A stretch of DNA of 64,000 nt from Lentisphaerae bacterium GWF2_49_21 (lineage in GTDB: Bacteria > Verrucomicrobiota > Lentisphaeria > Victivallales > GWF2-50-93): the NCBI GenBank assembly GCA_001804805.1, contig MHBH01000068.1, positions 1-64,000 of the forward strand, in the 5' to 3' direction. The translations under genes and the position numbers were made by a program. Under the pieces are notes generated by a model that was given only the letters and a program-made list of their open reading frames with translations, did not search any database and was not told where the DNA came from. Of the stretch, positions 13,850-44,272 are shown one piece after another; the first letter of the stretch is position 1, and every line of letters starts with the position of its first letter.

Positions 13850-14494
13850 CTTATCGAACTCCTGGTGGTAATTGCCATTATTTCGATCCTTGCAGCCCTG
13901 CTTCTGCCCGCCCTCAGGTTAGCAAAGGAGTCGGCAAAGACCATCAGCTGCACAAACAACCTGAAGCAAATATCTATTGCGACGTTCAATTATAGCACCG
14001 ACTATGAAGATCATGTCATGTATATTGGAAATCCTCAGACAGGAGACAACTACATGAGGGGCTTCTACCCGTATATGTCCAGCGAATCGCAACCGGCAAA
14101 TAAATATATTCCTTCCCTGAACTGCCCGTCAAACCTCAGCACGCCTTCCAACAGCCGCAATTACTCTACCTATGGATTGAACGCACCTTTTGGAGGCTAT
14201 GCCGGTTCAGCCAGCAAAGACTGGTGCCTATTCGCGCAGCTTAGACGCCCTTCGGTAACTCCGCTTTTTGGCGACAGCGGCGGCAATACGAGTGGCGCTT
14301 ACATGTGGAGCGACTCTGTCAACGCTTCGAACATAGAACAATATCAAAAACACATTTTCCGTCATGTAAAACGCCTTGGTGTGGGCGTCTTTTCCCGATG
14401 CGATGGCCACGTGGATACGGTCAAATATCAGGATGCGTACAGCGGGGAGGCGCCTTTGTCAAGCATTTTGACATGGAGACCAAGACATTACTAA
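13829..14494 (+). CDS. Prepilin-type (pseudopilin) protein
   Basis: This 221-residue protein begins [20 protein letters not shown], the prepilin peptidase motif and assembly helix. [16 protein letters not shown] follows, and a C-terminal [17 protein letters not shown] (H-X-DGH type). AAGGAGG sits 8 bases before the ATG, the strongest ribosome site of any pilin gene here. The protein is related to those at 1410 and 22353 over its whole length, but the region [17 protein letters not shown] differs from their [17 protein letters not shown]. The protein is expected in the inner membrane or on the surface after processing. No pilus assembly genes are in the window. Confidence 0.85.
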
Positions 14495-14610: not shown

Positions 14611-15199
14611 ATGAAAAAGTTTACCTTGATAGAGTTGCTTCTTGTTATTGCGATCATAGCAATTCTCCTTGCGCTGCTGCTCCCGGCCCTCAAAGGGGCG
14701 AAGGACATGGCAAAAAACATGGTGTGCATGGACAATCTGAAACAACTAGGACTGGTTCTTCCATCTTATGCGCTTGAAAATAATGATTATGTGCCACTAT
14801 GGGAGGGTTGCCCTAACATATATATTAAGCTGGCCATAGCGGCGACAGGAAAAAGTCTTGGTGGAAAAGCAACAAGGACATGATTTTGAACTGTTCCCAC
14901 CGCTGCAATGCGGCAGAAGGTTGGGCGATTACAGGACACCCACGTATTTTGTGAATACCCAGAAAGTATTCCTGAGTTCACTAAAGCAGCCTGATAAATT
15001 TGTCTTTTTAGGTGAATCCAGCACGTCTATCGCGAACGTCGCCGGGCTCTCCTGGAATTATATTGACTGGTGGAGACACACAACGGGAACAGCCTGCGAC
15101 AAGTCATATTTCCTGTTCGTGGACGGTCATGTAGTTATGATCAACAGGAATGATGGAGAAAACACTTGTAGATGGGTGAGACCGCTGTTGAACTGCTGA
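14611..15199 (+). pseudogene. Prepilin-type protein gene, frameshifted
   Basis: The gene begins [20 protein letters not shown] and continues [20 protein letters not shown], then closes in its first frame at 14883. The expected pilin continuation is in other frames: a stretch reading [19 protein letters not shown] (14880-14937), then TPTYFVNTQKVFLSSLKQPD and the C-terminal YFLFVDGHVVMINRNDG. At least two indels between about 14863 and 14945 would restore about 196 residues. The first 74 bases from codon 5 are identical to the minus-strand copy at 1-74. The 3' end runs directly into a regulator scar (15172). Sequencing error cannot be excluded, but two indels make decay more likely. Confidence 0.7.
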
Positions 15200-15273
15200 A
15201 GAAAACCAGCAACTATGATAAGATTGGAAAAACTAGGAACATTGTGCCATTGAAAGGAAAATCCTCAAAGTAA
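15172..15273 (+). pseudogene. 3' scar of a GntR/LacI-type transcriptional regulator
   Basis: In the frame overlapping the pilin tail, the DNA encodes MGETAVELLKKTSNYDKIGK then TRNIVPLKGKSSK and stop. The intact regulator at 39798-40889 ends MGETAVELLKKMINDDKIRK then LRNVVPLKG. These are therefore the last 33 codons of a close relative with the rest deleted. Its stop overlaps the heparinase start (TAATG), implying that the ancestral regulator gene was translationally coupled to the polysaccharide lyase gene. Confidence 0.8.
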
Positions 15274-17249
15274 TGAACTCTAAAATGGAAGTTTGCCGGC
15301 GTTCGCGTATAAATGAAGCCGCTGACAGGTACAGGAAGATAGATCCTGATGTCAAATATCTGCGCTCCAAGGCGGAGAAAACAGATATTGCCAATGTTTC
15401 ACGGCGTTTTTTTTCATCTCCGGAGGAGATAGCCGCCAAGGCTGCGATTGTCGCAAAGGACTTTCCTGAAGAAGCAATTGCCTTGAAAAGCACTTGCAAA
15501 GACATACTTGACCACAGGTTCAATCTTCTCGGATATGGGCCTGCAGGCTTTGGATTTCCGATAAAATGGCACTGCGACTATCGCAGTTCGAAGGAATGGG
15601 CAGGAGATGTCAATTACCTTGCATTGGGACAAAAGATGTTCGACGTCATTGTCGACAAGAAGGCCGGCTTGGAAGTGAAAGTCCCCTGGGATCTTTCGAA
15701 CATGATGTGGCTGCCCTCCCTCGCCTGCTCCTATCACCTGACAGGAAACAGGAAATATTTCGAAGCTTTCAAGAATGACATGTCCGACTGGATTGTGAAA
15801 AATCCATATCCGCTTGGAGTAAACTGGATCTGTCCGATGAATATCGCCATAAGGGCCATGAACATGATCGTCGGCCTGACAGCCCTTTATCCTGCGCTGG
15901 AGAAGGATTTCCTGCTGGAAGCCATTTGCAGCCTGTTCCAGCATGGAATTGCGATCATGGCATATCCCGAGCTGGGGAATAACGACAAGAGGAACAACCA
16001 TTATCTGACCGATCTGGCGGGGCTATACTTCCTCGGACATTTCTTCAGGGACACGGAGGAAGGTGTGGAATGGCTGGATTTTTCCACAAAGGAGCTCGAG
16101 CTGGAATTAGAATATCAATTCTATCCAGACGGCGTCAACTTCGAGGAGTCGACTAGCTATCACAGGCTTTCCTCAGAGATGCTTCTGCTCTGTGCGATAC
16201 TCGCAAGGGACAACGGGAAAGGATTTTCAAAGGATTTCACTGACCGGCTACACAAAAGCCTTAACTTCACCAGGGACATCCTTCAGGCGGATGGCAGGAT
16301 TCCTATGTTCGGAGACAATGACAATGGAAGGATGCTGCAATTCCATGGGTTTTCCAAGACTGCTTCTGCCGACCACAGGCACATCCTTGCGGTCGGAGGC
16401 GAGTTCTTCAATGATGATTCACTGCGTTTCCCTGGCAAAAATGCTGCGGCAGAAGCAGTATGGCTGCTTGGCAGTTTCAAATCCCCTTCCAGACCTGCAG
16501 ACAAGACCGGTCCCATCCTGAAAAAATATCCGGACTCAGGTTATTTCATCATAGAGGACAAAAAGACGAAGATTGTGATCAGGAATGCCAGAATAAATCC
16601 ATCATGCGGCGGAGGCCATGCGCACTGCGACCAGATGAGTTTTACATTGAGTTCCGGCTTGCAGGAGATAATCGTCGATCCAGGCACATATCTCTATTCA
16701 AGCAACTTCGAAGAACGGAACTGTTTCCGCTCGGTCGAATTTCATAACACGATCCAGCTCGGTTCCGAGCCGATGCATGAATACGACAGAAATACATTTG
16801 GCGGCCTATGGTGGATGAAGGATCTTGCCGATGCAGAGACAACAGAATTCAGGACCGAAGGGAAGAAGATTGTCTTTGAAGGGAAGATTCATTCATATGA
16901 GAAGAACTGCGGATACCTTGTCTGCCGTAAAATGACATACGAGCATGGCGTCTTGTCTCTTGTCGATTCTGCAATCCCGGTCGGGAAGAACATGAAAGAC
17001 AAATGTCCGTCATGCAGCAGATTCCTCCTCGCACCAGGTCTTGTTCCCTCGGTCGAAGAAAAGGGAATTGTGATGATAAGGAAAGGCTCGAGAATAATCT
17101 GTTTCTTTGAAATCCTTTCCGAGACCTGCAATACAAGAATCAACGATCTGTGGTTTGCTCCCGGATATGGAACAAAAATCCCAGCCAAGCAGATCGGAAT
17201 CGAATGGACGCCGGAAATAAATCTTAAATTAAAAATATTATTAGGATGA
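15273..17249 (+). CDS. Heparinase II/III family polysaccharide lyase
   Basis: This 658-residue protein has an all-alpha toroid in the first half (WLPSLACSYHLTGNRKYFEA, CPMNIAIRAMNMIVGL, NNHYLTDLAGLYFLGHFF) and a beta-sandwich C-terminal half. YPDGVNFEESTSYHRLSSEM near residue 290 and GGGHAHCDQMSFTLSSG near 450 hold the Asn/Tyr/His residues expected for lysis of uronic-acid polysaccharides in this superfamily. No signal peptide is present, so it may act on imported oligosaccharides. The start ATG overlaps the stop of the regulator scar, and the gene ends overlapping the GH36 start (ATGA), a tightly coupled pair. The exact PL family (PL12, 15, 17, 21 or 33-like) cannot be decided by eye. Confidence 0.85.
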   Translation: MNSKMEVCRRSRINEAADRYRKIDPDVKYLRSKAEKTDIANVSRRFFSSPEEIAAKAAIVAKDFPEEAIALKSTCKDILDHRFNLLGYGPAGFGFPIKWHCDYRSSKEWAGDVNYLALGQKMFDVIVDKKAGLEVKVPWDLSNMMWLPSLACSYHLTGNRKYFEAFKNDMSDWIVKNPYPLGVNWICPMNIAIRAMNMIVGLTALYPALEKDFLLEAICSLFQHGIAIMAYPELGNNDKRNNHYLTDLAGLYFLGHFFRDTEEGVEWLDFSTKELELELEYQFYPDGVNFEESTSYHRLSSEMLLLCAILARDNGKGFSKDFTDRLHKSLNFTRDILQADGRIPMFGDNDNGRMLQFHGFSKTASADHRHILAVGGEFFNDDSLRFPGKNAAAEAVWLLGSFKSPSRPADKTGPILKKYPDSGYFIIEDKKTKIVIRNARINPSCGGGHAHCDQMSFTLSSGLQEIIVDPGTYLYSSNFEERNCFRSVEFHNTIQLGSEPMHEYDRNTFGGLWWMKDLADAETTEFRTEGKKIVFEGKIHSYEKNCGYLVCRKMTYEHGVLSLVDSAIPVGKNMKDKCPSCSRFLLAPGLVPSVEEKGIVMIRKGSRIICFFEILSETCNTRINDLWFAPGYGTKIPAKQIGIEWTPEINLKLKILLG

Positions 17250-19255
17250 CTCCAATGACATCAAGTATAAGGAAAATAAACAATTCGCTGAAACTGTCGA
17301 ACGGACTGGTCGAAGCAGTGTTCAGCATTGACAGGTGCTTCAAGCTGGACAAATTCATTGATCTGGGGACAGGAAAGACGGTATGTACGCAGAAGGAGCA
17401 TATATTGGCGTTCGACAGGGAGAAGGAGGATCTTGCCGTCAAGGGTTCTGTGAAATTCGCAAAAACCTCGATCCGCAGGATTGACGATGCGTATCAGAAC
17501 ACAGGAATGGAGGTGGTACTCTTCTTCAGGATGTTAAAATCCGGATTATCCATTGAAAGGCATGTATTCATCTATGATGGTGCACCGGCGATAAGGATTT
17601 ACGATGTTTACAGCTCGGAAAAGGATCTTGCGGGCCTTTACAACTCGGACATTCTGAGTATTGAATTCAAAATGCCCTTCGAGGCAAGATGCGTGGAATT
17701 CTTTACCTGCACCGACCAGTCCAACTACAGGCTTATCGAGAAGAAGGCGGAGTTCAAGAACAGAGCTGGATTCTTCATAACTGATTCAGGAGCTTTCCTG
17801 TACAAGGAAGGACCGATGCCGGACAGCCAGCCGATAAAGGGCGAATATGATTTCATTTACCGTAAGGATTCCAGAATTGTTTCGGTCACAGGGCTAGGCT
17901 TCGAAAAGATCCGGAAAGGTGAGAAGCGAAGGGCGAACGGAATAGTCATTGGGCTCACGGAAGACAACAGTTCTTTGGGAGGGCTAAAGAAATATCAGCA
18001 GGCAAGGTATAAGATAAATTACGGGAATGACATTGAATATCTCGCAAACTCCTGGCCTGCGTTCCATCTTGACGTTACTGAAAAGAAGATCCTGAAGGAA
18101 ATTGAGGCCGCTTCAAGATGCGGAATCAAAACCGTTTTCATCGACGATGGATGGTTTGATACATTCATGGGAGAGATCGACAAGGAGAAATTCCCGCATG
18201 GCTTTGACAGGATTTCCAAGTTCGCCGCATCAAAGGGAATCAATGTCGGGCTCTGGATGAATCCGTTAGGCCTTGACATAAAGGACAAGAACGCGAAGGA
18301 ATGGGACGGTGCCGAGGCGCACGACACTTTTGTCGAGGGCAACAGGTGGAACTGGGTCGCACGCACAAACGATTTCAGATATGCCGAATACCTGGGTTCT
18401 GAGGGCGTGAGAGCATACTGCGCCATGGATATCATGGACAAAGGATATTTCGAGCATATCAGGGACAAAATCCTATCTCTCTACAGGAGATATGGCATAA
18501 GAAGGTACAAGTTCGACCTTTATCAGCTTCATCTTTTCGATACTCTGATCGGAGATCCGAACCGGCATTACGAGAAATATCGCGAGCTGCTACAAGTTTT
18601 GAAGAAAGATATTCCAGGTCTTGTGATTTCCATGGATATCACGAGAAGGAACCGTCCGTGTTTCGATTTCGGAATGGACTTCGGACGCCTGTTCATGGAG
18701 AACAGGGGAAGGAATCTGAAGGACCATCGTTACTATCATCCTTATGTGAGCTTGAGGAACCTCTGGTACACCGCGAAATATTTCCCGGCGCAGAAGATGG
18801 AACTGGAAATGATGCCGCAGATAGACGACTACCCGATTGAATACGTCCTGTCGACAACGATATTCGCAAATCCGCTTTATTGGGGAAGCCTTGCTGATCT
18901 TCCTGAAGAAAAAGTAAAACGCATGAAGTTATTCATTGACACATTAAAACCGTACAAGGAGGAAATCATGAAGGGGCTTGTTTTCCCTGTCGGCGAAATG
19001 CCTGAAAAGGGGAACTGGTCTGGCTTCATATCCATGCGGAGTGAGACAAAAGGCTATCTTGCAGTCTACCGCAATGGTTCAAAGTCAGGTAAATACAGGC
19101 TGAACACGAAGCTTTTGAGTTCCAGAAAATATATTTTCAAAGATGTTTTCAATTCAGGCAGCTTTATCATCCTGGATCCAGGCAAGATGGAATTCGCAAT
19201 TGAAGAAAAGTTTGGTTTCAGGTTGTACCGCATGGAGAAGGCAAATGATTCTTGA
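17246..19255 (+). CDS. Glycoside hydrolase family 36-type alpha-galactosidase
   Basis: This 669-residue cytoplasmic enzyme has no signal peptide. The N-terminal beta-supersandwich is followed from about residue 270 by a TIM barrel with IKTVFIDDGWFDTFMGEIDK and INVGLWMNPLGLD. GIRRYKFDLYQLHLFDTLIG gives Asp about 423, the expected nucleophile in the KxD motif. VISMDITRRNRPCFDFGMDF supplies the acid/base region. It likely removes terminal alpha-linked galactose (or a related sugar such as N-acetylgalactosamine). It overlaps the heparinase gene by 4 bases, so both are made from one transcript. A truncated relative of its N-terminus survives at 40895. Confidence 0.85.
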   Translation: MTPMTSSIRKINNSLKLSNGLVEAVFSIDRCFKLDKFIDLGTGKTVCTQKEHILAFDREKEDLAVKGSVKFAKTSIRRIDDAYQNTGMEVVLFFRMLKSGLSIERHVFIYDGAPAIRIYDVYSSEKDLAGLYNSDILSIEFKMPFEARCVEFFTCTDQSNYRLIEKKAEFKNRAGFFITDSGAFLYKEGPMPDSQPIKGEYDFIYRKDSRIVSVTGLGFEKIRKGEKRRANGIVIGLTEDNSSLGGLKKYQQARYKINYGNDIEYLANSWPAFHLDVTEKKILKEIEAASRCGIKTVFIDDGWFDTFMGEIDKEKFPHGFDRISKFAASKGINVGLWMNPLGLDIKDKNAKEWDGAEAHDTFVEGNRWNWVARTNDFRYAEYLGSEGVRAYCAMDIMDKGYFEHIRDKILSLYRRYGIRRYKFDLYQLHLFDTLIGDPNRHYEKYRELLQVLKKDIPGLVISMDITRRNRPCFDFGMDFGRLFMENRGRNLKDHRYYHPYVSLRNLWYTAKYFPAQKMELEMMPQIDDYPIEYVLSTTIFANPLYWGSLADLPEEKVKRMKLFIDTLKPYKEEIMKGLVFPVGEMPEKGNWSGFISMRSETKGYLAVYRNGSKSGKYRLNTKLLSSRKYIFKDVFNSGSFIILDPGKMEFAIEEKFGFRLYRMEKANDS

Positions 19256-20266: not shown

Positions 20267-20362
20267 GCACTCGACATTCTTGATATCGGCGGCAAACTTG
20301 TTGAAGCTGACTGGACTCTCAGCAAGGATGTTATTTTAATAAAAATATCAGATTACATTTGA
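20267..20362 (+). pseudogene. Possible 3' gene remnant
   Basis: A short open stretch reads LDILDIGGKLVEADWTLSKD then VILIKISDYI and stop. It looks like the end of a glycosidase C-terminal beta-sandwich, but has no start codon context and is preceded by a stop. I cannot assign a family; it may be chance. Confidence 0.25.
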
Positions 20363-20398
20363 CATAATTTATAATAGACATATAGTATTATATAAGAC
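20359..20398 (+). promoter_or_regulatory. Promoter with near-palindromic operator (GntR-type site)
   Basis: TTGACA (20359-20364), a 16-base spacer and TATAGT (20381-20386) form a good sigma-70 type promoter. GTATTATATAAGAC (20385-20398) overlaps the -10 and early transcribed region. It differs by one base from the perfect palindrome at 36856-36869. Binding there would block transcription of the truncated regulator gene at 20431. Confidence 0.6.
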
Positions 20399-20430: not shown

Positions 20431-20658
20431 ATGAACATAGACAGGCGCAAGAGGGAGCAGGCAAAAGGAAAGATATCCTTTTATTTACAGGCCGAACAGA
20501 TGCAGCCCGGAGAGAGGATACCGGCAGAAAGAAGACTGTGCGATGTGCCTGGAGTAAGCCACATCAACGTGCGATCGGCATTGTCAGAGCTTATACAGGA
20601 ACGGAATACAACCAGTCCACACCGCATCCTTTTCCTTTCAACATATTTCGATAGATAA
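20431..20658 (+). pseudogene. Truncated GntR-family regulator (DNA-binding part only)
   Basis: 75 residues from MNIDRRKREQAKGKISFYLQ carry GERIPAERRLCDVPGVSHIN and VRSALSELIQE, the winged-helix core of GntR regulators. The frame then departs into NTTSPHRILFLSTYFDR and stops, and no effector domain follows before the next gene. AGAGG lies a few bases before the second ATG at 20431. The upstream palindrome suggests that the ancestral gene was autoregulated. The remnant could still bind DNA, but dimerisation and sugar sensing are lost. Confidence 0.6.
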
Positions 20659-22352: not shown

Positions 22353-23009
22353 ATGAAAAAGTTCACATTGATAGAACTTCTGATTGTGATTGCGATAATC
22401 GCAATTCTCGCGGCGCTTCTTTTGCCGGCCCTGAAAAACGCGAAGGAACAGGCCAAGCTGATCAGCTGCATGAGCAATCTAAAGCAGATATATCTTGGAA
22501 CGCTCAACTACAGCATCGACTATGAGGAGCATGTCATGTATATTGGAGATCCGGCCACAAACAACTACATGAAAGGTTTCTACTCCTATGTTGCCAGTGA
22601 ATCACATCCTTCCAACAAATATGTCCCTGTCCTAAACTGCCCTTCAAACAAGGAAAATCCATCGAACAATTATCTTTATTCGACATACGGGCTCAACACC
22701 ATATTCGGCGACTATTCCGGTGCCGGTGGAAGGGATTACTGCAAGTTCTCCCAACTTACAAGACCTTCGGTGACACCGCTGTTCGGGGACAAGCAGGGGA
22801 CGACCTCCGGGACGATAACCTACAGCGGAGACATAACAAACAGTTCCAGGGCTCGGCATATATTCCGCCACGGGGGAGCGAGCTCATATGCCCAGATGAA
22901 GGCAAATTATCTTTTTTGTGACGGGCACACGCTCACATATCCGTATCCTGAAGCTTTTACAGGCAGTGCGCCACTTACGGATTACGACACTTGGCGGCCA
23001 CGGTATTAA
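22353..23009 (+). CDS. Prepilin-type (pseudopilin, H-X-DGH) protein
   Basis: This 218-residue protein begins [59 protein letters not shown] and [21 protein letters not shown] match the protein at 1410 almost throughout. It is a member of the expanded Lentisphaerota/Planctomycetota pseudopilin family, processed by prepilin peptidase. It lies between a GH-A glycosidase and two secreted proteins (23047, 23840), all in one direction with gaps under 50 bases, so it is probably cotranscribed with them. Confidence 0.85.
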
Positions 23010-27991: not shown

Positions 27992-28037
27992 TCTGTCCGA
28001 AGTCAATCATTTGGAAGCATGAAAAAAAGAAGTGGCA

Positions 28038-28700
28038 ATGAAAAAGAAAGAAAAAGGAGAATCCTTGTCATTCACCCTTATCGAACTATTGGTTGTCATA
28101 GCCATCATCGCGATTCTGATTGCAATGCTTTTGCCGGCCCTAAAAGCGGCAAAAGACAAGGCAAAAGAGGTGTTATGCATGAGCAACATCAAGCAATTAT
28201 GCTACGCCTCCTGTCTCTATGCCGGCGACAACAGCGGCTGGTTGCCGGTAGCAGGAGGGGCTTATCCATGGAGGAGTTTATATTTGATCGAATATGTATA
28301 TCCCGGCAATCCAAATAATTGGTATGGGAAAAACGCCGGAATCTTCCTGTGCCCTCTTTTCGACCGCTGGGATGTGAACAAGGTTTATCATTCAGGCTAT
28401 GGCTGGAATTTTTATTATCTTGGCCATTGGGCTCCTGATCATGTGAATCTGCTCACGGTAAAAATACCTGTTGAAACAATAGAACTCGGCGATGCGACTG
28501 ATTGGTATACAACCGGAGACTGGCAACTCGGATTTATTTACTCGCCCAGTTCGACCACTCCTGTTCCCCCCGTTGGAAATCGTCACAGCAAGGGGATAAA
28601 TTTCGGATGGGTCGACGGGCATGCTTCATGGATGTCGCAGAAGTCCATCATGCAGGGAGTCAATGGCAATTTGGATTACTATTACAAGGTCAGCAAATAG
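28038..28700 (+). CDS. Prepilin-type (pseudopilin) protein
   Basis: This 220-residue protein starts with a basic stretch (MKKKEKGES), then [20 protein letters not shown] with the Glu5-type helix and [20 protein letters not shown]. It ends with [19 protein letters not shown]. The globular domain is more divergent than those at 1410 and 22353. A GTG six bases upstream is an alternative start. The next gene, a carbohydrate esterase, starts 38 bases later. Confidence 0.82.
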
Positions 28701-30203: not shown

Positions 30204-30911
30204 ATGAAAAAGAATGGAAAAGGAGATTCTATTCCATTCACTATGATTGAGTTACCCGTAGTGAATTGGGGAAAGGCGCAAGTCTTCACCCTTATCGAAC
30301 TATTGGTTGTAATCGCAATCATAGCTATTCTTGCAGCTCTCCTTCTTCCCGCTCTTCAGACCGCGAAGGAAATGGGCAGACGCACTGTGTGCATCAACAA
30401 CCTCAAGCAGTTCGGCATAGCCACACATTCCTACGCTGAGGACAACAAGGATTTCCTCCCCGGCCGCGGTGCTACTTATCCCAAAATCGCATTCGTGGTA
30501 AATGTCGCCTACTGGGATGATGGTAGCGACAGGGCTACAGCCCAGCACGGGGAATATAATCCTGATTATATAGCCAGCAAGGACACTTATTACTGTCCCA
30601 GTGTCTATAATGAACTCTACACTGTTAAAAAATGGAAGGATTTGAGCAGCTACGGCTATTATATACCATTTCCCCTACAGCCGCCAAATCAGAAATACAG
30701 GCGTATTCAAGAGGTTCTGTCCGGATATACTCCCTCTAGCCAGTTTCTGATTTCAGATCTTTTAAACTGGGATATAACTGTAAAGTCATGGCATAATCCG
30801 AAAGGTTATTGCGTGTTGTTCTATGATGGGCATGTCAATTTCATATCTGATAAATTCTATCAAACTACTTCCGAAACATCATCAAGAAGTTTATTCAAGA
30901 ACAATTACTGA
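30204..30911 (+). CDS. Prepilin-type (pseudopilin) protein with tandem processing motifs
   Basis: This is a 235-residue protein. An N-terminal motif [17 protein letters not shown] is followed by a second, [20 protein letters not shown], so two FTxIEL recognition sites lie 17 residues apart, as in the protein at 1410. [20 protein letters not shown] and the C-terminal [19 protein letters not shown] give the H-X-DGH signature. GGGAGGGGC ribosome site 3-8 bases before the ATG. It is followed 30 bases later by the SIS-domain gene. Confidence 0.83.
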
Positions 30912-35700: not shown

Positions 35701-36124
35701 AGCAATCAATGCCGCAGCCCCGGAATTCTTCTGCGTCGACAAGGACGCGACAATACTGGGTGTCAACAGCCATTCCGGACGTCCTGCTTTTGCCGTGAAG
35801 GAATTCGACAGCTGGAAAAGCGTCTATATCTCCTGCCCCCTGGTTCCCCACAATATAATGCGCAGAATACTAGTATGGGGCGGATTAAAGCCAGTACTTG
35901 ATTCGGATGATGCGCTATACACAAACAGTGACATCATTGGAATCCGCGCAAAAGAGGCAGGCATCCGGAATATTTCGCTCAGGGAGGATTTCGAGATTGC
36001 GGATCTTTATGGTTCCGAAAAATACAAATCCAAGAATGGAAAAGCTCGTATAAATCTGAAACGCGGTGAAACTTTTATCGGAAGAATTTCCAGCGCAGAG
36101 GACGGTATAAAAAGGAAATTATGA
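32732..36124 (+). CDS. Putative GH42-like multidomain glycosidase, family not recognised
   Basis: This 1130-residue protein has no signal peptide. Residues 1-110 look gatase-like (VLIFPYGGYFPHDSWPKILD, ITLGTGPF). A beta-sandwich spans about 245-340, then a TIM barrel from about 355 (YAFNPYDRALDDLS, LLYPRVFLQTPAWWD). GCFICCGQYGEWVSF (Glu about 528) and KIFISENDQRTCVGEIG (Glu about 747) are candidate acid/base and nucleophile. A second gatase-like region lies near 890-1050 (KNLKKDGNLLIWLYAPGLYR), as in GH42 beta-galactosidases with trimerisation domains. Coupled by overlap to the SIS-domain gene, it may release a sugar that the SIS protein recognises after phosphorylation. Confidence 0.65.
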   Translation: MKFRTGMFYEPGFMDKEFFFGKHGSGLKQIYPDFFLADSSFLSTNRLDQHFDVLIFPYGGYFPHDSWPKILDFIRKGKDIITLGTGPFSSPCRKECGKWEVNDPFDFGDRWRWSFTSISTGKLGLSFWEVPDKSVLSNGNYSINIEPGLAKYFHGKTQFGCKRFTGTLNPLYTGRRKVVGRSPEDSSTAYDMDEYLAIVEPGFSREINGRFVQAGFLPDENWTMKDFKCFIKGMIDVLKSDEDDRLAYGMELSGYVTRKDSGLRCSCWQRGGGREMPSLNLTVKNEKGTTLSSFSIDCKNEMSLPVESLPEGIYHAELHEKNKKLVSSQFSVLPPRPGLPQVKVCRRNGYAALDVDGQIIPALAYAFNPYDRALDDLSRKFSERNINIHHFLYPLVFGWEDESRFDWTSFDRLAERILKNDPQGLLYPRVFLQTPAWWDADNQDEMKVYRNGSNFKANYVFNDDPLHANSKYSVRGFNRRMYGASWQSEKWRRDLCNVLKNFIEHVRKSVYRGNFFGCFICCGQYGEWVSFSNDNGCSWEDLSRPALRDFRSWLKKQYGGDDSKRRNKWECLGNISSDEIRVPATGTVKAGNDLHNFLDPDNAMKLAKEIPPAQIGKAVPPNFVRRHISKYGIFRDPNQSWDTIEYYRYWQDSFVETVSCFANAVKDASDGRSAVGMFIGYLMREYMQDLDSEYHQNSFLKILKGVRSIDIATSPYHYYRRFNTAEADANLRTVPGSINLSDKIFISENDQRTCVGEIGEYSHMLTGEADLAETLEAIKRNFVICMCHGTGLWWYDFGRGWYDHPDIMKTIGRCATIYRKLISEPNPCPAIHLFDVLNIIYSTKAYDYISSCSMICHSNTTIQVQEHFNRIGLPWEVYFLEDLPSAPPSKAYLFLNTCAIDDEDRKFIDKNLKKDGNLLIWLYAPGLYRNDVPNPENSSELTGIKLDWSLEKKEIDVKITDFTHPITRGLSNEDLRQFTSVYEPGKESLSAINAAAPEFFCVDKDATILGVNSHSGRPAFAVKEFDSWKSVYISCPLVPHNIMRRILVWGGLKPVLDSDDALYTNSDIIGIRAKEAGIRNISLREDFEIADLYGSEKYKSKNGKARINLKRGETFIGRISSAEDGIKRKL

Positions 36125-36194
36125 CGAAAGCAGAAAAAACTAAAGTCGTCATACTGCTTATTGGCTGGCATTTGTGCTCCAGCAAGAATCAACT

Positions 36195-36785
36195 ATGAAT
36201 AAATTTATTGCATTGGACATAGGAAACGTGTGCCTAAAACTGAGATTCGAGAGGTGCTTCTACGCCCTCGGATGTGCTGGAGATGAAAGACATTCAGACC
36301 GGATACTCCGCCTTGCTGAAAGACTTGGAAGAGGAGAAATATCTGAATGCGAATGGATAAAATGCATGCATAGGGAAACAAGGGAACAATTTTCAGACAA
36401 GGAAATTCTTGAGAACTGGAATCTTATTCTCGGAGATGAAATTCCGGGGATGCATGAACTGTTGGGTGAAATGAGGGAGCTCGGATATGAGATCATATTC
36501 TTCTCCGATACCTCCAGCATACATATTTCACGTATCTTCGACTATCTGAAGCTGACCGATTGCGTTGCAGGAGGAATTTACAGCTATAAAGTCGGCGCTT
36601 CAAAACCTGAAAGAAAGATGTATGAGGCTTTCGAAATAAAATACGGTAGACCGTTTCTCTATTCCGACGATAGAGAGGAAAATATTGAAGCTGGCATAAG
36701 ATCAGGCTGGTTCAGCCATCTGTTCACTTCAGTTGATTTACTTAGAAAAACCTTTATGGAACGGCATGTTTCGTCCTTGATCTGA
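36195..36785 (+). CDS. HAD-superfamily hydrolase (subfamily IA, YihX-like)
   Basis: This 196-residue protein shows HAD motif I as FIALDIGNV (the D-x-G-N-V form seen in YihX-like sugar phosphatases), motif II as IIFFSDTSSIH, the Lys of motif III in KVGASKPERKMYEAF, and motif IV as YSDDREENIEAG. Length fits the subfamily. I prefer the ATG at 36195 over an upstream GTG at 36174, because residue 1 then directly precedes motif I. Likely a sugar- or nucleotide-phosphate phosphatase, 70 bases after the glycosidase gene. Confidence 0.8.
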   Translation: MNKFIALDIGNVCLKLRFERCFYALGCAGDERHSDRILRLAERLGRGEISECEWIKCMHRETREQFSDKEILENWNLILGDEIPGMHELLGEMRELGYEIIFFSDTSSIHISRIFDYLKLTDCVAGGIYSYKVGASKPERKMYEAFEIKYGRPFLYSDDREENIEAGIRSGWFSHLFTSVDLLRKTFMERHVSSLI

Positions 36786-36848
36786 ATTAGAAGCTATTAT
36801 AAGCTAGATTAAACATCGCATGCCTTTGAAGATTGCCGATAATTATAC

Positions 36849-36877
36849 TTGACATGTCTTATATAAGACCATATGTT
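36849..36877 (+). promoter_or_regulatory. Promoter with perfect palindromic operator GTCTTATATAAGAC
   Basis: TTGACA (36849-36854) and TATGTT (36872-36877) are 17 bases apart. A perfect 14-base palindrome, GTCTTATATAAGAC (36856-36869), fills the spacer. A one-mismatch copy lies at 20385 and a half-conserved copy at 39759 upstream of the GntR-family gene. The natural reading is that this regulator represses the 36901 operon and itself until an oligosaccharide is bound. Confidence 0.7.
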
Positions 36878-36900
36878 ATTTAAACAAACAAAGGACTGTC

Positions 36901-38958
36901 ATGAAAAACACATATGAATGGCTCAGGAGATCCAGGACTTTCCTGTATGACGCATACTGGCCTCCGTTCACTCCTGAATTAAAATACACTTCGGAAGACG
37001 GGATAGCTGTCGCAAAAAAGATGAACGCAAACGTGATCCGCTTCGGTTCAATAGGCAAGTGGGCACTCTATCCAAGCAAGATCATGCCATGCCATCCGAA
37101 TCTGAAGGGACAGGACCTTCTGGGCGGAACAATCGACTTGGCCCACAGGAACGGAATTAAGATTATCGTATATATCCCCGTCTCCCATGCCCTACCCACG
37201 GAAATCGTCTGGAAGAAGAAACCCGAATGGGCGTTCCTAGGCGACGGCGGAAAATTCGTCGAGTCGGTCAAACATTTCGGCGGACTCGAGATCGTCCCCA
37301 CATGCATGAACGGAAAATACCACGAGGCCATATTAGGCATCGTGAGGGAGATTGTCAACAATTACGATCCTGACGGCATCTATCTCGACGGTCCTTATCA
37401 GGGCTGGGCCCATCACAAGACGATCTGCCAGTGCAAGGCCTGCAAGGATCTCTATCTTTCCGAGACGGGGCTCAAGTTGCCTGTAAACAAAATGCCTGAC
37501 GGGAAATGCGTCATGAACACGCCTGAAGGCGGGAAATATCTTTCTTGGATAAATGAGAAGCTCGCAAATATTCTTTCTGAGATCAGGGATATCACGAAAT
37601 CGAGGAAGGACATTCCCCTGATAATCAACAGGACGGCGGTCAAGATCACAGGGCTGGACAACGAAAGGGCGATGATAAAGCTCATAGACGGATTCCTGAC
37701 GGAGACGGATGCCGGTGGAATCGAGGGATTCAGCTACGGAGCTGTTCAAGAGAAGATCGTCTGGAACTACACGACACAGCACAGGTGGTGGCCGAGGCTA
37801 AGTTCGATAAGGCTCGAGAAGGAAAGCGCGCTTGAGGCGTACCGAACCATGTCCATGTGCGCCACGCCGATTGTCGCATATGCCGGAAGGTATTTCTACG
37901 AAAGCGAAAATTCTAATTACATGAAATCAGCTTTGTCCAGGATGAAATCTTTGGAAGAATTTTCACGGGGCTCCTCCCCGGCGAAATTCTCAGCCGTCCT
38001 TTTCCCCGGAGGAAAAGCCCAGGCGACTGTCGACTTCCATGCCCTGATGAAGATCAATCCCGATGCATATGAAATATATAAGTGTCTTCATGCGAATGGA
38101 ATCCCTGCGATGGTCCTTCCGGACTACATGATGGACGACAAGTCATTCGCCTCCTCATTCAAGATCATATGTGTTCCATCCTCACTCAAGATAAGCGGAA
38201 AGCTGTCGTTGCAGTTTAAGGAATTCGTTGAAGAAGGCGGAACTCTCCTTGTTTCCGGAAGCCGCAATACTGGAACCAGAGACAGGGAATCAAAGATAGA
38301 AGCTCTTCTTGGAATTGAAGTCCTGAAAGGGAAATGCGAGGAACGCAGGCTCATGGAGGAGCTGAGGTGGCTGGACAAGGCATATGAATTCTATATCAAG
38401 GCGTCAGACAGGGTGAAAGGTTTCAAATATGCTAAAACATTAATGCCTCAGTGCGACTTCATTCCCTTCAAACCTATGATAGGGAGCGAAATCGCGGCAC
38501 ATACGGTCTGCTGGCCGAAGGGCGAGAAGAGATTCCCGGCAGTCGTTGTCAGAAAAACCGGCAAGGGACAGTCCATATATTTCAATTCTCCTGTCGAAGA
38601 TCTGCTTTCCATCTACGGACAGATCGAGATCAAAGAATTTTTAAGCCTGCTGCTGAAAAAATATGTTGGGAGGAAATTGCCTTTTGAAATTAATTCACCT
38701 CGTCCTCTATCTGTGTCAATCGCAGAAAAGGAAGGGATGAAGATACTGCATGTTCTCAATGAGGAGAACTTCGGCGCTGAAACGGAGTTTTCACTCGTCG
38801 TGGGGATTCCGTCAGGTTCTAAGATCATATCCGCTAAATGCCTTATTGGCGGGAAGTCTGCAAAGTTCACAACCGTGAAGAACGGAATTCAGCTCAAGGA
38901 GTTAAAGATTTCGGATTACGAATGCATAGTCTTAAAATTATCGAAGCTAATTTTATAA
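36901..38958 (+). CDS. Putative TIM-barrel glycosidase (GH29-like / GHL type) with gatase-like domain
   Basis: This 685-residue cytoplasmic protein has an N-terminal barrel with DAYWPPFTPELKYTSEDGIA, IDLAHRNGIKIIVYIPVSHA and YDPDGIYLDGPYQGW. The Asp near residue 164 is placed like the nucleophile of alpha-L-fucosidase-type barrels. A following cysteine cluster, CQCKACKDLY, is common in this uncharacterised group. Residues about 375-480 form a gatase-like beta-galactosidase trimerisation-type domain (LQFKEFVEEGGTLLVSG). A C-terminal beta-sandwich closes the chain. Transcribed from the operator-containing promoter at 36849. Substrate unknown; a GH29-like exo-activity is the best guess. Confidence 0.65.
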   Translation: MKNTYEWLRRSRTFLYDAYWPPFTPELKYTSEDGIAVAKKMNANVIRFGSIGKWALYPSKIMPCHPNLKGQDLLGGTIDLAHRNGIKIIVYIPVSHALPTEIVWKKKPEWAFLGDGGKFVESVKHFGGLEIVPTCMNGKYHEAILGIVREIVNNYDPDGIYLDGPYQGWAHHKTICQCKACKDLYLSETGLKLPVNKMPDGKCVMNTPEGGKYLSWINEKLANILSEIRDITKSRKDIPLIINRTAVKITGLDNERAMIKLIDGFLTETDAGGIEGFSYGAVQEKIVWNYTTQHRWWPRLSSIRLEKESALEAYRTMSMCATPIVAYAGRYFYESENSNYMKSALSRMKSLEEFSRGSSPAKFSAVLFPGGKAQATVDFHALMKINPDAYEIYKCLHANGIPAMVLPDYMMDDKSFASSFKIICVPSSLKISGKLSLQFKEFVEEGGTLLVSGSRNTGTRDRESKIEALLGIEVLKGKCEERRLMEELRWLDKAYEFYIKASDRVKGFKYAKTLMPQCDFIPFKPMIGSEIAAHTVCWPKGEKRFPAVVVRKTGKGQSIYFNSPVEDLLSIYGQIEIKEFLSLLLKKYVGRKLPFEINSPRPLSVSIAEKEGMKILHVLNEENFGAETEFSLVVGIPSGSKIISAKCLIGGKSAKFTTVKNGIQLKELKISDYECIVLKLSKLIL

Positions 38959-38973
38959 AACAGGAGATATGCG

Positions 38974-39738
38974 ATGGGTTGTTTAAAAGGGAAAAAGGCT
39001 CTGGTAACAGGAGCGGAACAGGGCATAGGACAGGCTGTGGCGAGAGCTCTTGCCGAAAGAGGATGCGATGTGGCGATACATTATTATGCAAGCAAGGAGC
39101 TTGCCGAGGAAAATGCTAAGTTCGCAAAATCAAAGGGTGTCACGGCGGATGTCTTCCATGCCGACCTAACGAAGGAGCAGGACGCAAAGGATCTGGTGGC
39201 GGCAGCGGCGAAATTCCTCGGTGGAATTGACATTCTCGTGAACAATGTCGGCGATCTGGTTAAGAGGAAATACCTTAATGAGATTGATCTTGATTTCTGG
39301 AAGAAGGTATACGACATCAACGTAACCTCAGCCATGATGGTGACCCGCGAATCACTCCCTTATCTCGAGAAGAATCAGGATGGCGCCAGCATCATCAATC
39401 TGGCTTCCCTGGCCGGCAGGAAAGGCGGTCATCCCGGATCCCTCGTATATTCGACATGCAAAGGTGCGGTACTCACCTGGACAAAGGCTCTTTCCAACGA
39501 GCTTGCGCCTAAGGGTATCCGGGTGAATGCAGTCGCGCCTGGGCTGATCCTAGGCACACGATTCCACGCCACGCACACGTCAAAGGAATCGGCCGACGAG
39601 ACCATCAGGGGAATTCCACTTGGCAGAGCGGGTACTCCTGAAGATGTCGCAAGGACAATAGTATTCCTGGCTTCGGAATACGACGGATTCATAACTGGTG
39701 CGACCATAGATATCAACGGTGGAATTTACTGCATATGA
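38974..39738 (+). CDS. Short-chain dehydrogenase/reductase (SDR)
   Basis: This 254-residue classical SDR has nucleotide-binding VTGAEQGIGQAVARALAERG, NNVGDLVKR (the NNAG position), catalytic Ser in INLASLAGRKGG, and Tyr-x-x-x-Lys in LVYSTCKGAVLTW. It ends EYDGFITGATIDINGG. AGGAG lies 10 bases before the ATG, and the gene begins 15 bases after the glycosidase. In this setting it probably oxidises or epimerises a released sugar (for example fucose or uronate catabolism) rather than serving fatty-acid synthesis; that is inference. Confidence 0.88.
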   Translation: MGCLKGKKALVTGAEQGIGQAVARALAERGCDVAIHYYASKELAEENAKFAKSKGVTADVFHADLTKEQDAKDLVAAAAKFLGGIDILVNNVGDLVKRKYLNEIDLDFWKKVYDINVTSAMMVTRESLPYLEKNQDGASIINLASLAGRKGGHPGSLVYSTCKGAVLTWTKALSNELAPKGIRVNAVAPGLILGTRFHATHTSKESADETIRGIPLGRAGTPEDVARTIVFLASEYDGFITGATIDINGGIYCI

Positions 39739-39742
39739 TTTT

Positions 39743-39772
39743 TTGATTTGTAATTTCACAAATATATAAGAC
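39743..39772 (+). promoter_or_regulatory. Probable regulator promoter with half-palindromic operator
   Basis: TTGATT (39743-39748), 16 bases, TATAAG (39765-39770). The right half TATATAAGAC (39763-39772) is identical to the operators at 20385 and 36856, while the left half is CAAA instead of GTCT. This suggests weaker autoregulation of the GntR-type gene that follows. Confidence 0.5.
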
Positions 39773-39797
39773 TGTATACCTCTAAAATGAGGTGACT

Positions 39798-40889
39798 ATG
39801 AAAAACTTTGCCAAAATCGATAAGAATCTTCCGGTTCCGATCTATTATCAGATCAGAGAGGAAATACTGGAAAAAATCAAGTCAGGGAGGCTCGAACCAA
39901 AAACCAAGCTTCCTTCAGAGCTTGAACTCGCGAACGCCAACGGCGTTAGTCCAATGACAGTCAGGCATGCATACACTTGCCTTGTAAACGACGGTTACCT
40001 CTACCGTCGCCACGGGAAAGGCACTTTTGTAAGCGAATCTCCCAGGAAGGAAACACCGGTAGAGGAAGAGAAAAGCTCCACCGACATAGGATTGCTCTAC
40101 AGTAAATACTCGAGTGCCCTTTCATTTTACACGCAGATGCTGCTCGGGATAGAAAGCGCATGTATGAAGTATTCATACCATTTCCACATGATCGCCACAA
40201 ATGACAAAGGCATCAACAGCAGGGAGAACTTCATAATTTCCACACTGTTTTCAACAAGGCAGTTTGACGGGCTCATTGCGGCCGGGCCTCTCAAGGAAAA
40301 CGATATCCAAACGATAAGGAGTTTCGGGATGCCGCTGGTACTAGTCGATCACGACTACATTAACGACGAAGTGGTGACAGTCGTCACCGAGGATGAGAAA
40401 TTAGTGGAGATTTCCTTCAGGAAACTCCTGCAGGAAGGTAAAAAAAGGATTGCCATCCTAGGCGGGCCTCTCAGCGCAAATCCTGAAAAACTGCCGAGAC
40501 GCGGCGACAAACTCCTGAAATCCTATAAGCTATCCCTGCTGAAGGCCGGCCTGGCGTTCAGGAAGGATTATGCGAGGGCATGTGAGAATGACGAGGAATC
40601 CGGATATAAGGAAGCACGAGATCTCCTGAATATGCCTGATAGACCAGATGCAATAATAGTCAACGGCGACGTGCTTGCTAAATCCGTACTTCGTGCGGCT
40701 GAAAAATGCAGGATCAAGGTGCCAGAGGATGTTGAAATCGTAAATTATGGAGATTCGGAAGACTCGCCTTGCTGTCTCTTGAGCAAACCGCTTTTCGAAA
40801 TGGGAGAGACGGCAGTAGAGCTTCTGAAAAAAATGATAAATGATGACAAGATAAGAAAGCTGAGGAACGTTGTTCCCCTGAAAGGATAA
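39798..40889 (+). CDS. GntR/LacI-type (AraR-like) sugar-responsive transcriptional regulator
   Basis: This 363-residue protein has a GntR winged helix at about 10-75 (VPIYYQIREEILEKIKSGRL, KLPSELELANANGVSPMTVR, YLYRRHGKGTFV). A periplasmic-binding-protein/LacI-like sensor fills about 95-360 (LIAAGPLKENDIQTIRSFGM, VTVVTEDEKLVEISFRKLL, DAIIVNGDVLAKSVLRAA). The ATG at 39798 follows GAGGTGA; a GTG at 39792 sits inside that site. It probably binds the GTCTTATATAAGAC-type palindromes and releases on a sugar ligand. Its C-terminus is nearly identical to the scar at 15172. Confidence 0.88.
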   Translation: MKNFAKIDKNLPVPIYYQIREEILEKIKSGRLEPKTKLPSELELANANGVSPMTVRHAYTCLVNDGYLYRRHGKGTFVSESPRKETPVEEEKSSTDIGLLYSKYSSALSFYTQMLLGIESACMKYSYHFHMIATNDKGINSRENFIISTLFSTRQFDGLIAAGPLKENDIQTIRSFGMPLVLVDHDYINDEVVTVVTEDEKLVEISFRKLLQEGKKRIAILGGPLSANPEKLPRRGDKLLKSYKLSLLKAGLAFRKDYARACENDEESGYKEARDLLNMPDRPDAIIVNGDVLAKSVLRAAEKCRIKVPEDVEIVNYGDSEDSPCCLLSKPLFEMGETAVELLKKMINDDKIRKLRNVVPLKG

Positions 40890-40894
40890 GTTTC

Positions 40895-40990
40895 GTGATT
40901 AAGAATACTAAGGGATCCCTGTGTCTGTCCAACGGCCTGGTGGATGCGATACTCAGTAGCAACGGACACGTCAGTTTCGATGAAAATTGA
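40895..40990 (+). pseudogene. N-terminal scar of a GH36-type alpha-galactosidase
   Basis: From GTG 40895 the frame reads MIKNTKGSLCLSNGLVDAIL then SSNGHVSFDEN and stop. It resembles the start of the intact GH36 protein at 17246 (NSLKLSNGLVEAVFSIDRC). Only about 31 codons remain; the next gene starts inside its end. Together with the regulator scar at 15172, this shows that two related regulator-lyase/GH36 operons were rearranged. Confidence 0.6.
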
Positions 40991-41606
40991 TAAACTAATT
41001 GCTGAAAATAAATATACGGTCTGGCTGGCGCTTGGCGACAGCATCACCGAGTATAACCACTGCGCAGAGGGGTATGCGAACTATCTACAGCACTTCGACA
41101 ATCATCTTAGGCTGAAGTTCGGGAAAAGCAGATTTATGATTGCGAATTCCGCAGTCGGTGGCAGCAACTTAACGAAAGATCTCGAATTTGCGCTGGACCA
41201 GATAGAAAGGTTCAATCCTGGTTTTGTTACTGCGATGTACGGCATGAACGATTCAAGCAATGGCGAAAAAGGGCTCGTAGATTTCAAAACTAGCCTGAAT
41301 TCGCTCTGCGCATTCCTAAAGAAGAGGAAGATCCCCTCGGTCATCCTGACACAGAACCCCATCGACTTCGGATGCGCAATCCAGTGCATCCAGTCGCGAA
41401 AGGATTTCCCCCTATACGAGAAGGCCATTGCCGAGACCGTAAAGAAGGCTGGCATTGAATGCATAGACATATATTCCATCTGGAAGAAGGAGATCCTCGA
41501 CGTGAATCCGAACGAGCATTTTAAGCTGCTTCATGACGGTATCCATCCTAACCACAAGGGACATGAGTACATTTTCAACATAATGAAAAGGACAATGCTG
41601 AGATGA
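40980..41606 (+). CDS. SGNH/GDSL-family esterase
   Basis: This 208-residue cytoplasmic protein carries all four blocks: ALGDSITEYNH (Ser about 20), NSAVGGSNL, YGMNDSSNGEKG (Asn) and LLHDGIHPNHKGHEYI (Asp and His dyad). Size is typical of single-domain carbohydrate esterases. I start it at ATG 40980 (MKIDKLIAENKYTVWLALGD); its first bases overlap the GH36 scar. It ends overlapping the nitrilase-family gene by 4 bases (ATGA). Likely removes acetyl groups from imported sugars. Confidence 0.85.
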   Translation: MKIDKLIAENKYTVWLALGDSITEYNHCAEGYANYLQHFDNHLRLKFGKSRFMIANSAVGGSNLTKDLEFALDQIERFNPGFVTAMYGMNDSSNGEKGLVDFKTSLNSLCAFLKKRKIPSVILTQNPIDFGCAIQCIQSRKDFPLYEKAIAETVKKAGIECIDIYSIWKKEILDVNPNEHFKLLHDGIHPNHKGHEYIFNIMKRTMLR

Positions 41607-42898
41607 TAAACAGAGCAAGATGGCAGTCGTCACACCCAAACAATGTGGCAGTTCCTGTTTTCAAGGATAATTCCACTGCGGGCAGGACATCCCTGTCTAC
41701 GGAACTGAAATCCCCGGACAGCGCTGGTTTATGGACTGCTGATTTCGCAATTGAAGCAGGAGCCTCATACCGAATAATGGCTGAGGCGCATGTTACAGAC
41801 TCATCGGATGTCTTCAATGACGCTGGTGTCGTCGTCACCTGGAAAAAGACAGTGGCTTTGGAAACCCAGATACAGCGTGAATACATTGATCCGGAGATCT
41901 CCGGCGGCAAGCTGATACTTTTCTCGTCGGTTCTGACAGCTCCTGAAAATGCGAAATTCGCAGAGATCAGACTCTTCGTAAAATGGCGGAAGATGAAGGT
42001 TGAATGGAGGAATATCGGTATCAAGAAGGTGAAGGCCCAGGCACCAAGGCCGGTAAGAATTGTGACAACAAAGGTGATTCCGGCAAATTCCCCTTCGACA
42101 GTTGAGGAGAATATCCGGCAAGCAGGCGCACTGCTTGAAAGAATAAGGAAAGAAGTAAAAAATCCGGATCTGATTTTGTTTCCTGAGAACATGCTTGACC
42201 GCTGTGTGCGCAGCCCGCTTGAGGAAAAAGGCGAGACCATTCCCGGAGCTTTTACAAAATATCTTTCAGCATGGGCCCGAAGACTGAACTGCAATATTGC
42301 AACGACAATCCATGAGAAGGCAAAGGGACGCTATCACAATACCGCCTTCATACTTGACAGGAAGGGGCGGATTGCCGGTAAATACAGGAAGGTGCATCTT
42401 ACACTCTCTGAAATGGAGACTGGAATACTTCCGGGGAACGAATTCACTGTTTTCGATCTGGATTTCGGTAAGGTCGGATTCACTACCTGCTGGGACAACT
42501 GGTTCTGTGAATCTTCGAGGATATTAAGGTTGAAAGGTGCGGAAATGATATTGTTCCCTCTTGCAGGTGATGGAGACTTCAATCATCTTGAGCATATGTG
42601 GCCAACAAGGGCGATGGACAATGGACTTCCGCTGGTCGTGTCAGTATGGCAGGGTGATCCGAAGAGACCGGTGCCATCGAGGATTTATGACGGTACAGGG
42701 AAAATCCTTGCTGAGACTACAGAAAGTCTAGGTTACGCAGAAGCTCTCGTAGATCTGAACAAAAAACACAGGACCTATTGGCTTTCAGTTGGACCGTCTC
42801 TGGGAGAAGGAAGGAGCCTGTATGTCAGGGAAAGAAGACCAGAGATTTACGTAAAAAATATGAAAGACTGGGCAGGGACACATGGTGACCTCCAATAA
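41603..42898 (+). CDS. Carbon-nitrogen hydrolase with N-terminal beta-sandwich
   Basis: This 431-residue protein has two parts. Residues about 1-145 form a beta-sandwich of carbohydrate-binding look (SYRIMAEAHVTDSSDVFNDA, FAEIRLFVKWRKMKVEW). From about 150 comes a nitrilase-superfamily domain with Glu in LILFPENMLDR, Lys in GKYRKVHLTLSE and Cys in VGFTTCWDNWFCES. Most family members lack the extra domain. Translation is coupled to the SGNH esterase by ATGA overlap. The combination of deacylase and amidase suggests processing of an N-acylated or amidated sugar. Confidence 0.82.
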   Translation: MINRARWQSSHPNNVAVPVFKDNSTAGRTSLSTELKSPDSAGLWTADFAIEAGASYRIMAEAHVTDSSDVFNDAGVVVTWKKTVALETQIQREYIDPEISGGKLILFSSVLTAPENAKFAEIRLFVKWRKMKVEWRNIGIKKVKAQAPRPVRIVTTKVIPANSPSTVEENIRQAGALLERIRKEVKNPDLILFPENMLDRCVRSPLEEKGETIPGAFTKYLSAWARRLNCNIATTIHEKAKGRYHNTAFILDRKGRIAGKYRKVHLTLSEMETGILPGNEFTVFDLDFGKVGFTTCWDNWFCESSRILRLKGAEMILFPLAGDGDFNHLEHMWPTRAMDNGLPLVVSVWQGDPKRPVPSRIYDGTGKILAETTESLGYAEALVDLNKKHRTYWLSVGPSLGEGRSLYVRERRPEIYVKNMKDWAGTHGDLQ

Positions 42899-43030
42899 AT
42901 AGCAAAGTATCATAAAGGTACCGCACATGGCAAGCGGATATTGATCTTGCGATCATTGTGTTCAAATAGTTTATAATAGATTTCGAAATTTAGTCCAGGG
43001 GATTTTAATAATAAATATGAGGCATATAAT

Positions 43031-44272
43031 ATGAAAATATTGATTGCTGATTCATTCGAATCAAACGGGGTTGAACTTCTGAAAAAAGTGTTTGGCCCGC
43101 TCAATGTCGTGCAAGAATCTTCCCTCAAGGGGGATTCTCTGCGCGATGCAGTTTCAAAATACGATGTAATCGTGGTCCGCAGCAACAAGTTGACCAAGGA
43201 TATCATTTATGCGGCAAGCAATGTGAAGTTGATTGTGCGTTCCGGAGCTGGAGTGGACAATATTGATGTCGTAGCTGCCAGCGAACACGGAATCTATGTC
43301 TCAAATTGTCCCGGGAAGAATGCGGATGCAGTTGCAGAATTGACCATTGGGCTGATGATTGCCCTTGACCGGCGTATTGTAGAGAATGTTGTCGACCTGC
43401 GGGCCGGCGTCTGGAACAAGAAGGAATATTCGAAGGCGGACGGCCTTGCCGGCAAGACGATTGGAATTGCCGGATTCGGATCTATCGGACGTGCAGTTGC
43501 TGAACGAGCAAAGGGAATGAAGATGAAAGTGGTTGCGTGGTCGCGGTCCCTCACTCCAGAAGATGCGAAGGCGGCTGGAGTGGAATTTGCCCCCGACCTG
43601 GTTTCGCTTGCAAGGAGTTCAGATGTCTTGAGCCTGCACATCGCAGGCTCCTCAGGAACATCAAATATTATCAACAAGGAAGTCCTTTCGGCTCTCCCGG
43701 GAAATGCGATTCTGATAAATACGGCTCGGGCGGGCATTCTTGACCATGTCGCCCTTCGTGAAGCGGTTGCGCAGAAAAAACTCCGCGTTGCCCTTGATGT
43801 ATATCCCAATGAGCCAGGTTCAAACGACAAGCAATTCAATGATGAAATAATTTTCTTGCCGGGACTGCTTGGAACTCATCATATCGGGGCTTCAACGGAT
43901 CAGGCCCAGAGAGCTATTGCCGAAGAGGCAGTGAGGATAATCATTGAATTCAAAGAGACCGGAAACGTGCTCAACTGCGTGAACTTGTGCAAGAAATCGC
44001 CGGCGGTAGCGGATCTGATTGTAAGGCATTATGATCGTGTTGGCGTTTTGGCTGATGTCCTGACTGCGCTCAAACAGGCCAATATAAACGTCCAGGACAT
44101 GTCCAATATAATTTTTGAGGGTACAAAGGCGGCTTGTGCGCATCTTCACTTGGATACCTTCCCAGACGAGGTTCTCCTTAAGAGGATAAAGGAGTCGAAC
44201 ATATCAATCATCCAAGTCGAATCAATAATACTAAATCAAAAACAGGAATTATCAGCAAGTCCAAATGTTTAA
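43031..44272 (+). CDS. serA: D-3-phosphoglycerate dehydrogenase
   Basis: This 413-residue protein has the 2-hydroxyacid dehydrogenase fold: SGAGVDNIDVVAASEHGIYV, the Rossmann motif GIAGFGSIGRAVAERA, NTARAGILDHVALREAV with the catalytic Arg nearby, DVYPNEP, and GTHHIGASTDQAQ with the catalytic His. A C-terminal ACT domain (about 335-405, HYDRVGVLADVLTALKQANI) points to serine feedback control. It makes 3-phosphohydroxypyruvate, the first step of serine synthesis. It sits directly upstream of the glycine cleavage genes in the same direction, linking serine, glycine and one-carbon supply. Confidence 0.92.
   Translation: MKILIADSFESNGVELLKKVFGPLNVVQESSLKGDSLRDAVSKYDVIVVRSNKLTKDIIYAASNVKLIVRSGAGVDNIDVVAASEHGIYVSNCPGKNADAVAELTIGLMIALDRRIVENVVDLRAGVWNKKEYSKADGLAGKTIGIAGFGSIGRAVAERAKGMKMKVVAWSRSLTPEDAKAAGVEFAPDLVSLARSSDVLSLHIAGSSGTSNIINKEVLSALPGNAILINTARAGILDHVALREAVAQKKLRVALDVYPNEPGSNDKQFNDEIIFLPGLLGTHHIGASTDQAQRAIAEEAVRIIIEFKETGNVLNCVNLCKKSPAVADLIVRHYDRVGVLADVLTALKQANINVQDMSNIIFEGTKAACAHLHLDTFPDEVLLKRIKESNISIIQVESIILNQKQELSASPNV

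Follow-up and report, generated by a model that had tools for sequence, protein, structure and literature searches.

AraR of Bacillus subtilis combines an N-terminal GntR winged helix with a LacI/GalR-type sugar-binding domain, governs the arabinose regulon with L-arabinose as the inducer, and uses palindromic operators that lie in its own promoter and in those of genes for polysaccharide degradation. Its operator has the form At(T/A)tGTaCGTAcaa(A/T)T, with a GT-N4-AC core (PMC4218819). Another point of comparison is SdhR, a GntR regulator of the HutC subfamily, whose predicted motif TCTTATGTCTTATATAAGACATAAGA is listed as deviating from the usual consensus and contains, as its core, a 14-bp palindrome identical to the one described below; SdhR is cited there from work which, according to the title of the reference, concerned malonate/propionate catabolism in proteobacteria (PMC4494728).

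Our analysis covered a window of 64,000 nucleotides (the whole stretch of DNA considered here) from the genome of Lentisphaerae bacterium GWF2_49_21, in which this palindrome, GTCTTATATAAGAC, precedes an operon encoding a GntR-LacI chimeric regulator. Judged by its predicted domains, the regulator is of the AraR type in architecture, and its putative operators, like those of AraR, are palindromes located in the promoters of polysaccharide-degradation genes and of the regulator's own gene. The likeness does not extend further. GTCTTATATAAGAC has no GT-N4-AC core, unlike the operators of AraR and most operators of the HutC type; the G-contacting arginine at position 38 in the recognition helix of AraR's DNA-binding domain corresponds to a proline (Pro52) in all three of the regulators compared below; and, according to Pfam annotation, arabinose genes are absent from the operon at 36901. 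From the SdhR motif only the inner 14 bp are found here, without the outer TCTTAT/ATAAGA repeats, and the effector domain of SdhR is of the HutC type, whereas that of the regulator studied here is LacI-like. In the literature searched, the 14-mer turned up in a single paper, the one that gives the SdhR motif, so it has a precedent as a predicted GntR motif, though not for the GntR-LacI architecture.

The operon at 36901 and its candidate operator

The perfect 14-bp palindrome GTCTTATATAAGAC occupies positions 36856-36869 of the window. A previous sequence-only reading of this DNA had placed it between the -35 and -10 elements in front of the operon at 36901, and this is where it lies: the sigma-70-like promoter at 36849-36877 on the forward strand reads exactly TTGACA-17 bp-TATGTT, contains the palindrome inside its spacer, and was the top forward promoter-like site within 36100-43050 in the promoter scan. 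By itself, a 14-bp palindrome is unremarkable in the window, where 5 perfect ones were observed and 3.9 were expected, and it is the comparison with other loci that makes the case. Matches to the palindrome with up to three mismatches were not enriched in the window (3 observed against a mean of 1.58). The exact 10-bp half-site TATATAAGAC was enriched, with 4 matches against 0.04 expected and none of 100 shuffles reaching this number; two of these 4 matches come from GTCTTATATAAGAC itself.

The operon starts with the gene for a GHL6-type glycoside hydrolase (36901-38958; PF14871, E=4e-19), which is followed, all on the forward strand, by genes for an SDR oxidoreductase (38974-39738; adh_short_C2, E=1e-59), the GntR-LacI regulator (39798-40889), a GDSL lipase/acylhydrolase, or GDSL esterase (40944-41606), and a carbon-nitrogen hydrolase (41603-42898). 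The forward-strand scan revealed no promoter in 36877-41751 and no forward terminator, so that the regulator is most simply transcribed from the promoter at 36849. Its gene is third in the operon, and the operator at 36856 would therefore suffice for autoregulation, with no need of a separate promoter.

This regulator is the proposed operator-binding protein, a role to which comparison with its ortholog also points. Residues 16-78 correspond to an N-terminal GntR winged helix-turn-helix (PF00392, E=2.7e-18) and match the DNA-binding domain of AraR (4egy) with E=1e-9. The C-terminus is a LacI/GalR-type effector domain (Peripla_BP_3/BP_1; PF13377, E=8.8e-19; PF00532, E=5.2e-18), the best matches of which belong to the CcpA/RbsR/LacI family and include CcpA structures. 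Repressors of this family share the type of effector domain, but their DNA-binding domain is that of LacI, while here it is that of GntR. Their operators have a central CG, unlike GTCTTATATAAGAC.

The paralogous operon and the distant ortholog

Two exact copies of the palindrome exist in the 5.9-Mb genome, the second one at C61:194365. Both occupy the same promoter position in front of paralogous operons, each of which has its own regulator. The order of genes in the C61 operon is GHL6 glycosidase (77% identical), SDR, regulator (62%), heparinase-like, melibiase-like and carbon-nitrogen hydrolase, the last being a paralog of the gene at 41603. When the two loci are aligned on the palindrome, 28 of 30 bases agree, from TACTTGACAT through AGACCATATG, whereas the 60 bases upstream of this promoter block give 0-4 matches per ten and the flanks are unalignable. 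The two glycosidase genes are identical at 53% of third positions and 41% of fourfold sites, rates at which the binomial probability of at least 28 matches in 30 would be about 2e-6 and 2e-9, respectively. Selection has retained promoter and palindrome in the paralogous operons, which share descent and are, as bearers of the palindrome, not fully independent. All three regulators (that at 39798, its C61 paralog, and the G055 ortholog described below) share an identical recognition-helix core, SPMTVR, and an identical wing, LYRRHGKGTFV, and because of this identity the first two probably recognise the same sites.

Another part of the window bears traces of the same gene set. A remnant of a third copy of the regulator (15166-15258, C-terminal 31 residues, 74% identical) is followed, on the same forward strand, by a heparinase II/III-like gene (15273-17249; PF07940, PF16889), 79% identical to its paralog located behind the C61 regulator, and by a melibiase-like gene (17246-19255; PF02065), a paralog of the next C61 gene. 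Since a scrap of the regulator is joined here to paralogs of the C61 genes, the ancestral operon has been split within the window. Pseudopilin-like genes (13829-14494, 22353-23009, 28032-28700 and 30204-30911) are interspersed among glycosidase genes, as they are in the C61 locus; the first of them was recognised by Pfam and the other three by their similarity to the pseudopilin-like genes of that locus.

Among 198 genomes of the class (716 Mb), the regulator was detected at E<=1e-45 in two only, namely the genome of the window and G055, a member of another family. The G055 regulator is 43% identical; GACTTATATAAGAC is located 20 bp before its ATG, just 3' of a TATAAT, and the gene next in line is orthologous to the GDSL gene at 40944. 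The second copy in G055 is exact and is likewise found just 3' of a TATAAT; 12 bp separate it from the ATG of a gene for a predicted secreted protein, about 510 residues long. This protein gave no Pfam or NCBIfam match, and our impression, formed by eye only, is that its N-terminus resembles polysaccharide deacetylase. The candidate operator is conserved at operons or genes encoding the regulator in the window, on C61 and in G055.

The 198 genomes contain six occurrences of GWCTTATATAAGWC: two in the genome of the window, two in G055, and one each in G005 and G271. The four places in the regulator-holding genomes are all just 5' of genes; the matches in G005 and G271, neither of which precedes a gene start, were rejected as operators. 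Four occurrences in the two regulator genomes, compared with 0.03 expected from the rate outside them, correspond to P of about 3e-8, or 4e-6 when the paralogous pair is counted once and 3e-4 when calculated by genome (hypergeometric). A wider phylum sample contributed one further exact GTCTTATATAAGAC, in G404 of the same phylum (L089:1501-1514, extended to CAGTCTTATATAAGACTG); it precedes a predicted lipoprotein gene, no close relative of the regulator was found in G404 at the threshold used, and this copy speaks against the assignment of the palindrome to the regulator. In G007, a Lentisphaeria metagenome assembly from the family to which the genome of the window belongs, the glycosidase is present (77% identical), and neither the regulator (E<=1e-45) nor the palindrome was detected; at 81% completeness of this assembly, the regulator may have been missed. 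Only one relative of the glycosidase was found in the named genome collection. The core idea of the sequence-only reading, that one GntR/LacI-type regulator has this palindrome as its operator in a small carbohydrate regulon, is supported by the C61 paralog, the G055 ortholog and the co-occurrence in the 198 genomes; the half-site at 39763, on which it also relied, is unsupported as a working operator.

Further copies of the palindrome

A one-mismatch copy, GTATTATATAAGAC (20385-20398), had been described as overlapping the promoter before a truncated GntR gene at 20431. It is present and overlaps the TATAGT hexamer of the promoter TTGACA-16-TATAGT (20359-20386, 11 of 12 matches), both features being read on the forward strand. 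The frame behind it (20431-20658, forward strand) comprises only the DNA-binding part, positions 2-52 of 64 in the Pfam GntR profile, with neither wing nor effector domain. No DNA relative of this frame was found in its own genome or in five relatives, and its protein relatives are weak only. It is a decayed GntR frame, and the promoter at 20359 may now serve the next gene, at 20827. The placement of the 20385 site at the promoter resembles that in G055, and the copy is credible as an operator.

The half-site TATATAAGAC at 39763-39772 (forward strand), 25 bp before the ATG of the regulator, fared differently. Its presence exceeds chance, but the proposal that it overlaps a -10 element found no support, as no sigma-70-like promoter was recognised at this place in the forward scan. 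The half-site is not present in the paralogous C61 locus either, and its role as a working operator is unsupported. It could be what remains of an older, separate autoregulatory promoter and operator, since the regulator gene of G055 is preceded by a full operator in the equivalent location (20 bp before its ATG, compared with 25 bp here).

A scan of the genome with up to two mismatches, which had been proposed together with these claims, was run and yielded 12 further sites, nearly all of them in coding sequence or far from gene starts. Such two-mismatch matches, and genome-wide matches to the half-site, are mostly noise. One two-mismatch copy, ATATTATATAAGAC at L017 (C9:46049), is located 275 bp before a ribulokinase gene and constitutes a weak lead. 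Matches to TATATAAGAC in L090, L092, L093 and L107 were discarded, as they belong to an unrelated dispersed repeat, catatgTATATAAGACtta...aaaatagaccacaa, and other genome matches to it fall in coding sequence. A half-site on C63, taken to precede a relative of the GHL6 gene, was also rejected, the gene there encoding an unrelated protein of 105 residues.

Proposed regulation and its alternatives

It is quite probable that GTCTTATATAAGAC is the operator of a sugar-responsive, AraR-like repressor encoded at 39798-40889, and of its C61 paralog, each of which would block its own operon. We infer that, when the inducer is absent, a dimer of the regulator bound to the palindrome would block RNA polymerase, because the site either falls between the -35 and -10 elements or spans the transcription start. 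A sugar released by the enzymes of the locus itself would bind to the LacI-type domain and lift the repression. This would derepress the operon from the glycosidase through SDR to the regulator, perhaps together with the GDSL and carbon-nitrogen hydrolase genes, and the regulator would in this way control its own synthesis. As their operators are the same and their recognition helices nearly so, the regulator and its paralog probably cross-regulate both operons, and the copy at 20385 probably represents a third target. An inducible and self-regulating repressor is suggested by the combination of sites at all of which a bound dimer would exclude the polymerase, an effector domain of the LacI type, and a catabolic operon. 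The heparinase-like and melibiase-like genes of the paralogous operon suggest that the inducer is an oligosaccharide derived from a uronate- or galactose-containing polymer.

It is conceivable, though rather unlikely, that the palindrome serves some other GntR-family regulator of this genome and not the one encoded in the operon. There are 51 matches to the 39798 protein at E<=0.001 in the genome, other GntR- or LacI-type regulators among them, to any of which the site could in principle belong; moreover, the 14-mer forms the core of the motif predicted for SdhR, a GntR protein of the HutC type, and a decayed GntR frame is situated behind the 20385 copy. Nevertheless, the motif tracks regulators of the 39798 type, accompanying one in the C61 operon, standing 20 bp before the regulator's own gene in G055, and being undetected together with it in G007, while the decayed frame at 20431, which has no wing, is too short to work.

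In this genome the site separates -35 from -10 in each of the two operons, which could alternatively indicate that the regulator activates transcription from within the spacer. This we consider very improbable: the spacer already has the optimal length of 17 bp, which makes realignment unnecessary, and the sites in G055 and at 20385 are at or after the -10 element, positions from which activation would not be anticipated. Given that the two operons are clearly paralogs, the similarity of their promoters might be a mere leftover of a recent duplication, with a functionless palindrome; this is hardly credible when 28 of 30 promoter-operator bases match despite only 41% identity at fourfold sites and unalignable upstream flanks, and when the site recurs in another family, in different surroundings and at a different position. 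The idea that an AT-rich palindrome happens by chance to accompany an ordinary promoter, favoured by the approximately four 14-bp palindromes expected per 64-kb window and by the lack of enrichment of matches with up to three mismatches, can practically be set aside in view of the genome-wide rarity of the site, its promoter placement and its co-occurrence with the regulator. Repression of the operon by its own AraR-like regulator would represent an ordinary kind of bacterial regulation, with unusually good comparative support for a reading first made from the sequence alone.

Sister-clade regulators found in another class (G165, G233) are 34-38% identical to the regulator and have the same helix, with the wing RLQGRG. 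ATAACTATAGTTAT or its one-base variant is located about 50 bp before the start of two of the three sister-clade regulators (L077:9151-9164; L075:10938-10951), which suggests that the wing may set the outer bases of the operator. Tentatively, one might imagine that a GntR-LacI lineage with proline in place of arginine took on a 14-bp, TATA-centred operator coinciding with the SdhR core, and that the change of the wing between RRHGKG and RLQGRG shifts the outer bases (GTCTTATATAAGAC versus ATAACTATAGTTAT). If this were true, the variation of wing and operator would provide a small natural series for reading the operator specificity of GntR proteins. A search of the literature for GntR-LacI regulators in Lentisphaeria found no characterised one. 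The analysis presented here gives one of the many GntR-LacI regulators encoded in a Lentisphaeria genome a candidate operator and, with it, a first regulon. If correct, it would also show that regulators built like AraR can work with an operator devoid of the GT-N4-AC core.
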